64,000 nucleotides of DNA, from the NCBI RefSeq assembly GCF_031181385.1, contig NZ_JAPSKV010000003.1, positions 248,001-312,000 on the forward strand, read 5' to 3'. A program made the translations under genes and the position numbers. How positions within the stretch are numbered: the first letter of the stretch is position 1; each line of letters starts with the position of its first letter. This stretch comes from Fredinandcohnia onubensis (GTDB taxonomy: Bacteria; Bacillota; Bacilli; Bacillales; Bacillaceae_L). The notes under the pieces are model-generated. The model saw nothing but the letters and a program-made list of their open reading frames with translations, was not told the origin of the DNA and searched no databases. Below are positions 23,243-28,632 of the stretch, one piece after another.

Positions 23243-24577
23243 ATGTCCAAATATACGAAAGATGATATTTTTCGTTTAGCAAATGAAGAGAATGTAAAAT
23301 TTATTCGTTTACAGTTTACAGATATTCTCGGAACAATCAAAAACGTTGAAATTCCTGTAAGTCAATTAGAAAAAGCATTGAGCAATAAAATGATGTTTGA
23401 TGGCTCTTCAATTGAAGGCTTTGTTCGTATCGAAGAATCAGATATGTACCTATTTCCTGATTTAAATACATGGGTAGTTTTCCCGTGGACTGCTGAAAAG
23501 GGGAAGGTTGCTCGTTTAATTTGTGATATTCATAATGCGGATGGTACTCCATTTGAAGGGGACCCTCGTAACAATTTAAAGAGAGTCTTAAAAGAAATGG
23601 AAGAACTAGGATTTACGGATTTCAATCTTGGCCCTGAACCAGAATTTTTCTTATTTAAGTTAAATGAAAAAGGTGAACCAACACTTGAACTTAATGATAA
23701 TGGTGGTTACTTTGACTTAGCTCCAACAGACCTTGGTGAAAACTGCCGCCGTGATATTGTGTTAGAGCTTGAGGAAATGGGATTTGAAATTGAAGCTTCT
23801 CACCATGAAGTTGCACCTGGACAACACGAAATTGATTTTAAATACGAAGATGCTTTAACAGCATGTGATGAAATTCAGACCTTTAAGCTTGTTGTAAAAA
23901 CAATAGCTCGTAAACACGGTTTACATGCAACCTTTATGCCAAAACCATTATTTGGAGTAGCGGGTTCAGGAATGCACTGTAATCTATCATTATTCAAAGG
24001 TGGGGAAAATGCATTCTTTGATCCAAATGCGGACCTACAATTAAGTGATAATGCAAGACATTTCATCGCGGGTATTTTAAAGCATGCTCCTAATTTTACA
24101 GCTGTTACGAATCCAACTGTAAACTCATATAAGCGATTAGTACCTGGTTATGAAGCACCTTGTTATGTAGCTTGGTCTGCTCAAAATAGAAGTCCACTTG
24201 TTCGTATCCCGGCTTCACGTGGTTTAAGCACACGTGTTGAGGTGCGTTCAGTTGACCCAGCAGCAAACCCTTATATGGCAATGGCTGTATTATTAGCTGC
24301 AGGATTAGATGGAATCAAGAACAAGTTGACACCACCAGCACCTGTTGACAGAAATATCTATGTAATGAATAAAGAAGAGCGTAATGAAGCCGGCATTGTG
24401 GATTTACCACCAACTTTATCTCTTGCATTAGATATGCTAAAGCAGGATGAAGTGCTAATCAAAGCATTAGGCGGACATCTGTTCGAACACTTCATTGAAG
24501 CAAAAGAGATTGAATGGGACATGTTCCGTACCCAGGTTCATCCATGGGAGAGAGAGCAGTATATGACAATGTATTAA
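23243..24577 (+). CDS. glnA: Glutamine synthetase, type I-alpha
   Basis: The enzyme makes glutamine from glutamate, ammonia and ATP and acts as a nitrogen sensor through contacts with GlnR and TnrA. The 444-residue length is that of the GSI-alpha group of Bacillus. Visible motifs are [48 protein letters not shown] and [10 protein letters not shown]62, the residue tied to feedback inhibition in B. subtilis, is present. It is the second gene of the glnRA operon, with GGGGAGGAAA before the ATG. Confidence 0.98.
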
Positions 24578-24583
24578 TAAATG

Positions 24584-24617
24584 AACCCTTAACACATTCT
24601 TGTGTTAAGGGTTTTTT
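24584..24617 (+). terminator. Terminator of glnRA
   Basis: AACCCTTAACACA and TGTGTTAAGGGTT form a perfect 13-bp stem followed by six T. Confidence 0.93.
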
Positions 24618-24623
24618 GCTAAT

Positions 24624-24660
24624 AAAAAGGGAACATTTCATTTAGAAATGTTCCCTTTTT
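24624..24660 (-). terminator. Terminator of lexA
   Basis: A 15-bp stem (AAAAGGGAACATTTC and its complement) lies immediately after the lexA stop on the minus strand and has T runs on both sides, so it can stop transcription in both directions. Confidence 0.88.
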
Positions 24661-24663
24661 AAA

Positions 24664-25290
24664 TTAATGAATTGTACGGTAAACGCCGATGACTTTTCCT
24701 AGTATGGCTACGTTTTTCAGGATGATTGGTTCGAGCATTGAGTTTTCCGGTTGCAAGCGGATATGGTCTTTTTCTTTAAAGAAACGTTTTACAGTCGCCT
24801 CATCTTCCTCAGTCATAGCTACAACAATATCCCCATTGTTCGCTGAATGCTGTTGTCTGACAATCACATAGTCTCCGTCAAGGATTCCCGCTTCAATCAT
24901 ACTATCACCCATAATCTCAAGCATAAAGATTTGATCATCATGGGCTGCAAAACGATCAGGTAATGGGAAGTACTCTTCAATATTTTCCACAGCTGTAATT
25001 GGTTGGCCTGCAGTAACCTTACCAATGACCGGAACATTCACAACGTTTGCAGTTGGAATTGTTTCATTTTCATCAACCTGTAAAATCTCAATGGCACGAG
25101 GTTTCGTAGGGTCTCTTCGAATCAACCCTTTGCTTTCAAGTCGTGACAAATGTCCGTGCACTGTTGAACTTGATGCTAAACCAACAGCCTCACCTATTTC
25201 TCTTACGGAAGGTGGGTAGCCCTTTTCTTTAACTTCTTGTTTTATGTAATTCAATATATCCTGCTGTCTTTTAGAAAGCTTCGTTGTCAT
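24664..25290 (-). CDS. lexA: SOS repressor LexA
   Basis: LexA represses DNA-damage genes and cleaves itself when RecA filaments form. The 208-residue product has an N-terminal winged helix ([20 protein letters not shown]), the cleavage site A94-G95 in VTAGQP, and the S24-type dyad S130 (MGDSMIEAG) and K168 (ATVKRFF). AAGGGGATGAG precedes the ATG. It is divergent from the SOS peptide gene at 25528 and shares its operator region. Confidence 0.97.
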
Positions 25291-25404
25291 CTTCGCTCAT
25301 CCCCTTGCATTTATATTTTATATGTATCTAAATCTTCTTTTCATAATCTCTCTCTCGGTTCAGGTGACCAAGTAATTTCGACAAATACCGAATTTCTTAA
25401 GTTG

Positions 25405-25433
25405 AGTATAGCATGTTTTACTAGATTATACAA
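25405..25433 (-). promoter_or_regulatory. Sigma-A promoter of lexA
   Basis: Read on the minus strand, TTGTAT (25433-25428), 17 bp and TATACT (25410-25405). The LexA box at 25431-25444 overlaps its -35 element, allowing autorepression. Confidence 0.7.
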
Positions 25434-25444
25434 ACATAAGTTCG
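25431..25444. promoter_or_regulatory. LexA box 1 in the lexA/SOS-peptide divergent region
   Basis: CAAACATAAGTTCG has one mismatch to CGAACNNNNGTTYG. Confidence 0.75.
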
Positions 25445-25452
25445 AATTTTTG

Positions 25453-25482
25453 TTGACACAAAACAAATGTTCGGTTTATAAT
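25453..25482 (+). promoter_or_regulatory. Sigma-A promoter of the SOS peptide, with internal LexA box 2
   Basis: TTGACA (25453-25458), an 18-bp spacer and TATAAT (25477-25482). The spacer holds AAAACAAATGTTCG (25460-25473), a LexA-like box with two mismatches in the left arm. A third, weaker box, CGAACAAACATTCT, lies downstream at 25497-25510. Promoter quality is near consensus, so induction should be strong once LexA is removed. Confidence 0.8.
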
Positions 25483-25527
25483 AAAAACATAAAATACGAA
25501 CAAACATTCTGTAGGAGTGAAATAAAG

Positions 25528-25614
25528 ATGTTAAAGAAATTTCAAGGCGGATTTATCTATTATGTACTATTTGTTTTATTAAGTATGGGAATGGTTATTA
25601 TTAGTGCAAGCTAA
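25528..25614 (+). CDS. SOS-controlled 28-residue membrane peptide at the yneA position
   Basis: A strong ribosome site (GTAGGAG) and ATG open a 28-codon frame encoding a basic MLKK start, a short linker and one hydrophobic segment (about residues 9-27), then stop. The position is that of yneA, the SOS division inhibitor of B. subtilis, which is about 105 residues with one membrane segment and a LysM domain. No LysM sequence is found in any frame before ynzC, and the resolvase-like yneB is also missing. The peptide could be a remnant or a reduced functional inhibitor. Orientation is predicted N-in, C-out. Confidence 0.6.
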   Translation: MLKKFQGGFIYYVLFVLLSMGMVIISAS

Positions 25615-25699
25615 ATACGTAATGTGGATGACTTGTAAATTATCTTTTCATCTAGTACTATGAACTATATTTAGAAAAGAATAAACAAGGAGTAAAATT

Positions 25700-25930
25700 A
25701 TGCTTGCAAAAGATAAAATTGATCGAATCAATGCTCTTGCAAAAAAAGCGAAGACAGTTGGTCTTACGGATAATGAAAAAGAAGAACAACAAGAGCTTAG
25801 ACAAGAGTATTTACGTGTTTTTAGAAGTTCAATGACTAATACATTACATTCTGTAAAAGTCGTTGACCCTGAGGGTAATGATGTAACCCCAGAAAAACTG
25901 AAAGAAAGTAAACGGAAAAGATTACATTAA
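25700..25930 (+). CDS. ynzC: YnzC, DUF896 protein
   Basis: YnzC is a small two-helix protein of the DUF896 family with no established biochemical role; in B. subtilis it belongs to the LexA-controlled yneA-yneB-ynzC operon. The 76-residue product (LAKDKIDRINALAKKAK, then EEQQELRQEYLRVFR and a basic tail) matches that family in length and pattern. It lies 85 bp after the SOS peptide with no terminator between, so it should be SOS-induced too. Confidence 0.93.
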   Translation: MLAKDKIDRINALAKKAKTVGLTDNEKEEQQELRQEYLRVFRSSMTNTLHSVKVVDPEGNDVTPEKLKESKRKRLH

Positions 25931-25934
25931 TAAA

Positions 25935-25968
25935 GAATACATAGATTTCTATGTATTCTTTTTTTTTG
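25935..25968 (+). terminator. Terminator of the SOS peptide-ynzC operon
   Basis: GAATACATAGA and TCTATGTATTC form a stem followed by nine T. Confidence 0.9.
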
Positions 25969-26042
25969 TGCATACTATCAATGAAAGAACTGCTTTGTTT
26001 TATGTTAGTTCATAAGAAACTATTGAAAGGATGTTTACTTTT

Positions 26043-28046
26043 ATGACACACTCACTAACTGATTTGTCGATAGCGTCAATTCGAACACTTTCTATTGATG
26101 CAGTTGAAAAAGCAAATTCAGGACACCCAGGTATGCCAATGGGAGCCGCACCCATGACATATGCTCTTTGGACTCGACATATGAAACATAACCCGAAGAA
26201 TCCAAATTGGTTCAATCGTGACCGATTTGTTCTATCTGCGGGTCATGGCTCTGCATTATTGTATAGTATGTTGCACCTATCAGGCTATGACTTAACGATT
26301 GATGATTTAAAACAATTTCGCCAATGGGGCAGTAAAACCCCAGGACATCCTGAGTATGGCCATACAGCTGGTGTCGATGCAACAACTGGCCCGCTCGGTC
26401 AAGGTATTGCAATGGCAGTTGGAATGGCAATGGCAGAACGTCATTTAGCAGGTGTCTATAATAAAGACTCATTTGAAATTGTTAACCATTATACATACGC
26501 GATTTGTGGAGATGGTGACCTGATGGAAGGTGTATCAGGTGAAGCTTCATCATTAGCAGGACATTTAAAATTGGGTCGTCTAATTGTTTTGTATGATTCC
26601 AATGATATTTCACTTGATGGTGATCTTAATCAAGCTTTCTCAGAATCAATCGAACAAAGATATAAGGCCTATGGCTGGCAATATGTACGTGTTGAGGATG
26701 GAAATGATGTAGAAGCGATTGATAAAGCAATTGAAGAGGCTAAAGGTGATTTATCACGTCCAGCTCTCATTGAGGTTCGAACAACAATTGGTTATGGCTC
26801 TCCAAATCGAGCTGGAAAGTCAAAGGCACATGGTGAACCATTGGGAGCCGATGAATTAAAATTAACGAAGGAAGCGTATAACTGGACGTTTGAAAATGAT
26901 TTTCACGTTCCAGGTGAGGTATATACTCATTTTGAGGAAACAGTGAAAAGAACTGGAGAACAAAGCGAACAAGAATGGAACCAAATGTTCAGCCGTTATA
27001 AGGAGAATAACCCAGAACTCGGAAAGCAGTTAGAAATGGCAATAGAGGGTACACTTCCTGATGGTTGGGAGAAGACGCTGCCAGTTTATGAGGTAGGCAA
27101 GAAGCTTGCAACTAGGGCATCTTCTGGTGAAGCATTAAATGCTATTGCAAAGAGTGTGCCTCAATTCTTTGGAGGGTCGGCGGATTTAGCGGGATCAAAT
27201 AAAACAATGATTAACGGTGCTGCTGACTTTATGCCTAAGGATTACAGTGGTCGGAATATATGGTTTGGAGTACGTGAGTTTGCAATGGGAGCTGCATTAA
27301 ATGGGATGGCTCTTCATGGCGGTGTTAAGGTATATGGGGGAACATTCTTTGTATTCTCCGATTACTTAAGACCAGCGATTCGATTAGCTGCTTTAATGAA
27401 AGTTCCTGTAACTTATGTTTTCACACACGATAGTATCGCGGTTGGAGAAGATGGACCAACACATGAGCCTGTTGAACAATTGCCAGCATTACGTGCAATG
27501 CCAAATTTATCTGTCATTCGACCAGCGGATGGAAATGAAACGGCAGCTGCATGGAGAACGGCTATTGAATCGAAAGAAATTCCTACAGCTCTCATTTTAA
27601 CGAGACAAAACCTACCAACATTAGAAGGAACAGCCGAGAAAGCTTATGAAGGTGTTCAGAAAGGTGCTTATGTGATATCACCTGCAAAATCTGGACAGCC
27701 AGCGGCTCTTCTATTAGCAACAGGATCTGAGGTTAGTCTAGCAGTTGAGGCACAAAAACAACTCGCAAGTGAAAATATTGAGGTGTCAGTTGTAAGTATG
27801 CCTTCCTGGGATCGCTTCGAGGCCCAGTCAAAAGAATATAAAGAGTCCGTTATTCCTACAAATGTGAAAAAACGTTTAGCGATTGAAATGGCAACACCAC
27901 TTGGTTGGGAAAGGTATACTGGTGATGAGGGAGATATTCTTGGTATCCATGAATTTGGTGCTTCGGCCCCCGGTGAAATCGTACTGAAGGAATATGGCTT
28001 CTCAGTAGAAAATGTAGTAAACCGTGTTAAACAATTACTTCAATAG
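26043..28046 (+). CDS. tkt: Transketolase
   Basis: Transketolase moves two-carbon units between sugar phosphates in the pentose phosphate pathway, using thiamine diphosphate. The 667-residue product has [24 protein letters not shown], the TPP motif [12 protein letters not shown], and the pyrimidine-domain segments [13 protein letters not shown] and [14 protein letters not shown]. The ATG at 26043 gives exactly the B. subtilis length; the upstream in-frame ATG at 26031 overlaps the ribosome site GAAAGGA. It stands alone between two hairpins. Confidence 0.97.
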
Positions 28047-28191: not shown

Positions 28192-28632
28192 ATGAGAGAA
28201 TACCACATTTATTTAATAGAAGAAGAATTTGCAACTCATTACTTTGGACGGGAATCACTAATCTATCATTTATTTTTAGAGCACAACCAATCTAAACATG
28301 AACGGAAAGAAATACTCAATAAGCAAATTGATTTTATTACAAGGGCGATTCCATCATTACGTATCCACCAAAAAATTGAAGGAAGCCTAGCTCATTATTC
28401 CTATTATAGACGTCAAAGTCATATGCACACTCTCGAATGGAATGAATTTAATAGCTTTGCAAAACTAACGATACATAATGATTACATTCATTTAGAGTCT
28501 ACAGGCAGCTTTGAAGCTGAGACGGCATTTTTTGAAATCCTTCGTAAATATGATCGTTGTTTCCTAGCAATGGATTTTAAAGCAAACAAATATGGGTGGT
28601 TAAACCCGATTAAAGAAAGAAAGTTTGTATAA
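28192..28632 (+). CDS. sirA: Sporulation inhibitor of replication SirA
   Basis: SirA binds domain I of DnaA and blocks new rounds of replication as cells enter sporulation. The 146-residue product keeps the hallmark segments EEFATHYFGRESL near the N-terminus and FFEILRKYDRCFLAMDF...GWLNPIKERKFV at the C-terminus. GGAGGAAAG precedes the ATG. An upstream 0A box fits its known activation by Spo0A. Confidence 0.92.
   Translation: MREYHIYLIEEEFATHYFGRESLIYHLFLEHNQSKHERKEILNKQIDFITRAIPSLRIHQKIEGSLAHYSYYRRQSHMHTLEWNEFNSFAKLTIHNDYIHLESTGSFEAETAFFEILRKYDRCFLAMDFKANKYGWLNPIKERKFV

Follow-up and report, generated by a model that had tools for sequence, protein, structure and literature searches.

What takes the place of the SOS division inhibitor YneA beside lexA in Fredinandcohnia, where no LysM-bearing frame is left? 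The window analysed here is a stretch of 64,000 nucleotides from F. onubensis. On its plus strand, a frame of 28 codons (25528..25614, including the stop) encodes the peptide MLKKFQGGFIYYVLFVLLSMGMVIISAS, which we call mini-YneA. Its neighbours are lexA, which is divergently transcribed (24664..25290, minus strand; 208 aa; NCBIfam TIGR00498 lexA, 272 bits), and downstream ynzC (25700..25930, plus strand; 76 aa), which scores 94 bits with the NCBIfam DUF896 model and does not reach its curated cut-off of 112. This is the location of a YneA-type gene, with yneB itself missing. A ribosome-binding site, AGGAG (25513..25517, plus strand), can be read ending 10 bases before the ATG; in some relatives it is AGGGG, GGGAG or TGGAGG. 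Only 85 bases separate the mini-yneA stop codon from ynzC, leaving no room for a LysM, whose Pfam model has 43 positions. Judged by eye, the peptide has one membrane helix, a build like that of SidA (about 29 residues, one helix, LexA-type boxes). When searched against NCBIfam, PDB and Pfam, it gave no match except for that of one member to a RepA1 leader model (E 0.1). Recoding or readthrough into a downstream LysM was considered and rejected: there is too little room, and the stop codon varies (TAA in eight genomes, TAG in one).

The first-pass annotation of this DNA, made from the sequence alone, had suggested comparing the lexA-ynzC interval across relatives, and this comparison bears out that the frame is a gene. 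Mini-YneA is found in all nine genomes of the source genus at E 2e-7 or better, at the same place and with a fixed stop position; the best match in the other eight genomes of the family has an E value of 0.76. The synonymous rate exceeds the non-synonymous rate, with a mean pN of 0.076 and pS of 0.480 over the nine genomes (ratio 0.159, compared to 0.142 for ynzC). The coding frame has 160 pairwise residue differences; the two alternative forward frames have 280 and 340, and 1000 column shuffles average 303, every one of them lying above 160. Variable columns fall at codon positions 1, 2 and 3 in 10, 6 and 17 of 28 cases, respectively, and 17 of 28 positions are invariant among the eight distinct peptides. 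Alignment of the interval leaves the coding part free of gapped columns; before ynzC 42 of 123 columns have gaps, as do 73 of the 93 columns of the lexA leader, partly because that leader is short in G007. By these measures, mini-yneA is a real gene, and purifying selection acts on it much as on ynzC. The window's frame is also open 5' of the ATG, an accident of that genome: open-frame lengths across the genus vary (28, 40, 40, 40, 52, 69, 87, 119 and 144), and in G011 the frame is open only at the peptide itself. An alternative ATG two codons earlier is possible in two genomes of the genus.

The promoter, TTGACA-18-TATAAT (25453..25482, plus strand), matches the sigma-A consensus at 12 of 12 positions. 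It is common to the nine genomes (TTGACA, a spacer of 17-18 bases, TATAAT), G008 having TATGAT and 17 bases; although just one of the six -35 columns is invariant in the alignment, this is because the G008 alignment is shifted, and the hexamers themselves are kept in all nine. Three LexA-like boxes, given without strand, were scored against CGAACNNNNGTTCG, which we take to be the LexA box consensus. Box 1, CAAACATAAGTTCG (25431..25444), has one mismatch and is invariant across the genus; box 2 (25460..25473) lies within the promoter spacer, has two mismatches and is present in every genome, with 10 of 14 columns invariant; box 3 (25497..25510), just 3' of the likely transcription start, also has two mismatches and is invariant. 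All three are thus kept in nine of nine genomes. LexA-like sites of such quality number 13 over the window against 14.6 expected by chance, and promoter-like sites in 25290-26050 number four against a shuffle mean of 4.0; what counts is therefore how good, how clustered and how conserved these particular sites are. Three boxes in 80 bases were found in none of 300 Markov-resampled 64-kb windows (largest cluster two), and none of 3000 local resamplings (410 bases) attained three sites. A LexA regulon did not emerge by pattern, as sites with at most one mismatch are no commoner in the genome than in the control (30 versus 97). The 28-codon frame, near-consensus promoter and three boxes of the earlier description therefore stand, and mini-yneA is of SOS type as judged by its operators, the LexA-type boxes at its promoter.

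The same annotation had the peptide replacing YneA; it proves instead to be homologous to YneA's own membrane helix. At the same place, sister genera encode a YneA of 107-111 residues from the likely ATG, whose helix reads, for example, MKLSIEGLTYYILFFVLLIGLTLALS in G016 and MKERKISGIYYVLFTFLLIAMSFAIS in G001. A single hhalign comparison of the genus profile with eight sister YneAs gave a probability of 93.5 and an E value of 2.2e-7, placing residues 2-26 on YneA residues 1-25. The helix of the G009 peptide (its residues 6-28) was also compared pairwise with the N-terminal 40 residues of ten full YneAs, with 2000 shuffles each. The score was attained by 0 to 4 shuffles for seven sister genomes (G001-G004 and G014-G016) and by 8 for L057, from another family; the similarity was not above shuffles for G013 of the same family (1097 of 2000) or for L045 (G046), outside the family (815 of 2000). 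The YYxLF pattern of the sister YneAs is kept. The sister YneAs were missed by open searches with the peptide (E up to 1) or the genus profile (E up to 0.1), so the homology rests on the comparison at the syntenic place. In a hand alignment via the YneAs of B. mojavensis (L094) and G016, the critical B. subtilis residues K5, E6, F10, V11 and F14 correspond to Q6, variable position 7, Y11, Y12 and F15, so that the aromatic face survives and the charged pair does not. Helix distances are 0.21-0.32 for mini-YneA at LexA+YnzC distances of 0.135-0.156 (G007 versus the eight others) and 0.185-0.52 for full YneA in the sister genera at distances of 0.09-0.11, an indication that the mini-YneA helix is evolving no faster than theirs. 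At the level of sequence, then, mini-YneA is YneA cut to its membrane segment and no unrelated replacement.

With the YneA of B. subtilis and relatives (NF010723), mini-YneA shares the position beside lexA, the LexA-type operators and, with sister genera, an N-terminal membrane helix of similar sequence; it differs in its length and in having no linker, LysM or C-terminal tail, and yneB is also missing. Having neither an extracellular LysM nor a score at the NF010723 cut-off, it is not a YneA as that family is defined, though by the comparisons above it is a helix-only descendant of one. The NF010723 model exceeds its cut-off in none of the nine genus genomes and in all eight sister-genus genomes; the frames that it does match in the genus at E 1e-9 have 313-449 residues. 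A full-length yneA elsewhere in the genome, which the first-pass annotation advised seeking, was not found over the family cut-off in this genome or the genus. Candidates in the source genome were discarded: 43 LysM matches led only to larger LysM proteins, and of 35 NF010723 matches at E 1e-3, the best has 40.9 bits (cut-off 60) and the smallest open frame is 176 aa. The reported loss of LysM and yneB likewise held, as a whole-genome YneB search at E 1e-20 detected none in any of the nine genomes. At that threshold YneB is also not found in three of the four genomes of sister genus g2 (G001, G003 and G004), which have lost yneB and kept a full yneA, a possible intermediate toward the source-genus state. 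That yneB loss preceded the reduction of yneA is a guess.

How widespread is this reduction, and how old? Intervals upstream of lexA were classified with YneA and YneB models built from those same intervals, 11 loci having been dropped beforehand (ten repeats of places already in the set, plus L062, which has nearly the same interval as L055). In the resulting set of 148, which is biased toward close relatives and retains near-repeats (L083 and L193 share the same YneA), 118 intervals have yneA and yneB, 14 yneA only, seven yneB only and nine neither. YneA is thus read in 132; the nine with neither gene are those of the source genus, and the other seven without YneA keep yneB. Among these intervals, the helix-only state is read in the source genus only. 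A peptide-profile search at E 0.1 matched 85 of 396 genomes of the order, eight of them from the source genus; the other matches are weak (the best, at 4.5e-4, has an internal stop), and the sole one inspected, G343, chosen for its nearness to lexA, proved to be the tkt region and not the yneA place. In the LexA + YnzC tree, the genus forms one clade (split support of 80, tree as built), with G007 branching first. The G007 LexA is 86% identical to that of the window and no closer to it than those of G015 and G016. Since G007, at the base of the clade, also has mini-YneA, the reduction is ancestral to the genus: in the common ancestor, yneA would have lost its linker, LysM and C-terminal tail, and yneB would have disappeared as well, with the membrane helix and the LexA-controlled promoter both retained. 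YneA itself is already known, and the helix-only form is a new variant; a literature search, largely outside subscription papers, returned no title or abstract that deals with a Bacillaceae YneA lacking LysM.

What such a peptide might do is suggested by three known inhibitors. The helix of B. subtilis YneA is reported to be necessary and sufficient for midcell localisation and to bind FtsW via TM7, the LysM being required to stop septal wall synthesis; the helix without LysM is reported not to block division or colony growth (PMC13396833). Because that helix is inert alone, a natural helix-only version is a puzzle: it is either self-sufficient, as SidA is, or a docking element only. SidA of Caulobacter crescentus is described as an SOS-induced inner-membrane protein that acts on FtsW and for which 29 residues suffice (PMC4211646). 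Its inhibition has been demonstrated experimentally, it belongs to a different phylum, and FtsW is only the presumed target of mini-YneA. Of the likeness to SidA that the first-pass annotation drew, size and build stand and nothing beyond these; low-confidence AlphaFold 3 models are reported to place SidA and YneA on different sides of FtsW TM7 (PMC13396833). SosA of Staphylococcus aureus resembles mini-YneA in lying beside lexA, being SOS-induced and having a single helix and no LysM, but it is reported to have 77 residues and an essential extracellular part, and its authors describe no clear homology to other Gram-positive inhibitors (PMC6851548). With 25 of its 28 residues aligned to the N-terminal helix of YneA, mini-YneA lacks an outer C-terminal segment of the SosA type.

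We lean toward mini-YneA being a mild FtsW-directed SOS brake, a reading that we favour over the others and consider slightly better than even. Upon DNA damage, LexA would be cleaved and mini-YneA made, probably together with ynzC. The basic start (MLKK) would hold the N-terminus on the cytoplasmic side, and the helix, aromatic in its FIYYVLF stretch, would insert and dock on the septal synthase FtsW, as the B. subtilis helix does on TM7. Docked mini-YneA would temporarily lower septal wall synthesis, acting as a milder brake than full YneA. The sequence itself shows the gene, its operators, the selection on it and its descent from YneA; we infer damage induction, membrane orientation, the FtsW target and inhibition of division. 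FtsW-type proteins fall into two groups, of which we take the longer, lower-scoring one to be FtsW and the other SpoVE; on that assignment, FtsW is read in eight of nine genus genomes and one sister, and a proline in the presumed TM7 is kept in all nine (G012 and most sisters have only one FtsW-type match at the threshold used). Against a brake stand the equivalent B. subtilis helix, which did not stop division without LysM (PMC13396833), and SosA, in which the residues just outside the membrane are reported as essential for inhibition (PMC6851548); mini-YneA stops at the membrane surface or close to it. The earlier term 'reduced division inhibitor' is apt as to origin, by descent from YneA, and tentative as to inhibition. 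More tentatively, and in our view somewhat more apt to fail than to hold, mini-YneA may be a self-sufficient 28-residue FtsW inhibitor that arose by domain loss from a full inhibitor, convergent with Caulobacter SidA, changes in the helix having made LysM unnecessary. FtsW may be the common target of YneA, SosA and SidA, and in B. subtilis the isolated YneA helix is inert. A genus-wide natural helix-only YneA offers a ready-made comparison for finding the residues that make an inhibitor of a docking helix, or a use for docking alone. It also allows a direct test, in a well-studied lineage, of how small an SOS division brake can be.

Docking without braking ranks next and is distinctly less probable. 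Mini-YneA would occupy FtsW TM7 and inhibit nothing alone, perhaps positioning another wall-binding protein that has assumed the part of LysM, or tuning the synthase in some other way. The behaviour of the equivalent B. subtilis construct (PMC13396833) is what this predicts, and the 43 LysM matches point to many other LysM proteins in the genome. By eye, however, none of the 30 LexA-like sites with at most one mismatch lies within 5 kb of a LysM gene, which is a weak test as the sites are fewer than in the control.

It is unlikely that the old helix has taken up a new job, such as another divisome or membrane target, a protease like YlbL or CtpA, or a general role as an SOS membrane peptide. 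In B. subtilis, YlbL and CtpA are reported to remove YneA and to interact with the full-length protein (PMC6051672), and proteases of both families persist in all 17 family genomes though the part of YneA that CtpA digests is gone. CtpA-type proteases are, however, widespread (8 of 14 control genomes) and have other roles, and the helix retains the YYxLF pattern. Under the favoured reading of mini-YneA as a brake, the loss of the CtpA-digested part means that its shut-off must differ from that of YneA, or rest on repression and YlbL.

Between mini-yneA and ynzC the scan showed no terminator; a terminator-like hairpin follows ynzC (25932..25961, plus strand). In B. pumilus, a yneA-yneB-ynzC operon is reported to be peroxide-induced, yneA approximately 44-fold (PMC3896406). 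A promoter-like element, TTGTAA-17-TACTAT (25633..25661, plus strand; 8 of 12 matches, below the scan threshold), precedes ynzC and suggests that this gene has its own promoter too. In the source genus CTTGTA is followed after approximately 17 bases by TAGTA, and looser forms are seen in several relatives; a strict pattern for the element occurs in 18 of 144 intervals, eight of them in the source genus. The position directly upstream of ynzC, with no terminator between, would suit a role in controlling ynzC, as a leader frame or cis element that yields no working peptide, but this is very improbable given constraint at the amino-acid level, resemblance to YneA and no Rfam match in 24500-26100. 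A decaying, functionless remnant, to which the truncation itself might point, is the least probable of all, given the low pN/pS (0.16 over nine genomes), the lack of any frameshift or indel and the three operators in every genome.

Several other loci in the interval set depart from the usual arrangement. L123 (Alkalihalophilus marmarensis), of the yneB-only class, has a frame of 97-99 residues at the yneA place, approximately 140 bases upstream of lexA and followed by yneB; it contains a hydrophobic stretch without LysM or any Pfam domain and may be a separate case of a YneA that lost its LysM. L066, L068, L101, L171, L178 and L194 lack yneA, and yneB comes immediately after the lexA promoter region; these lineages may have lost their SOS division inhibitor or encode it elsewhere. 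L094 (Bacillus mojavensis RO-H-1) has, 154 bases upstream of lexA, a yneA frame of 77 codons and a yneB frame of 167, both shorter than those of relatives, which probably reflects a sequencing error or a recent truncation. Finally, the window contains sirA (28192-28632; Pfam SirA, 172.8 bits), a sporulation inhibitor of replication, 3' of tkt; in B. subtilis, sirA presumably lies in the same block after tkt.
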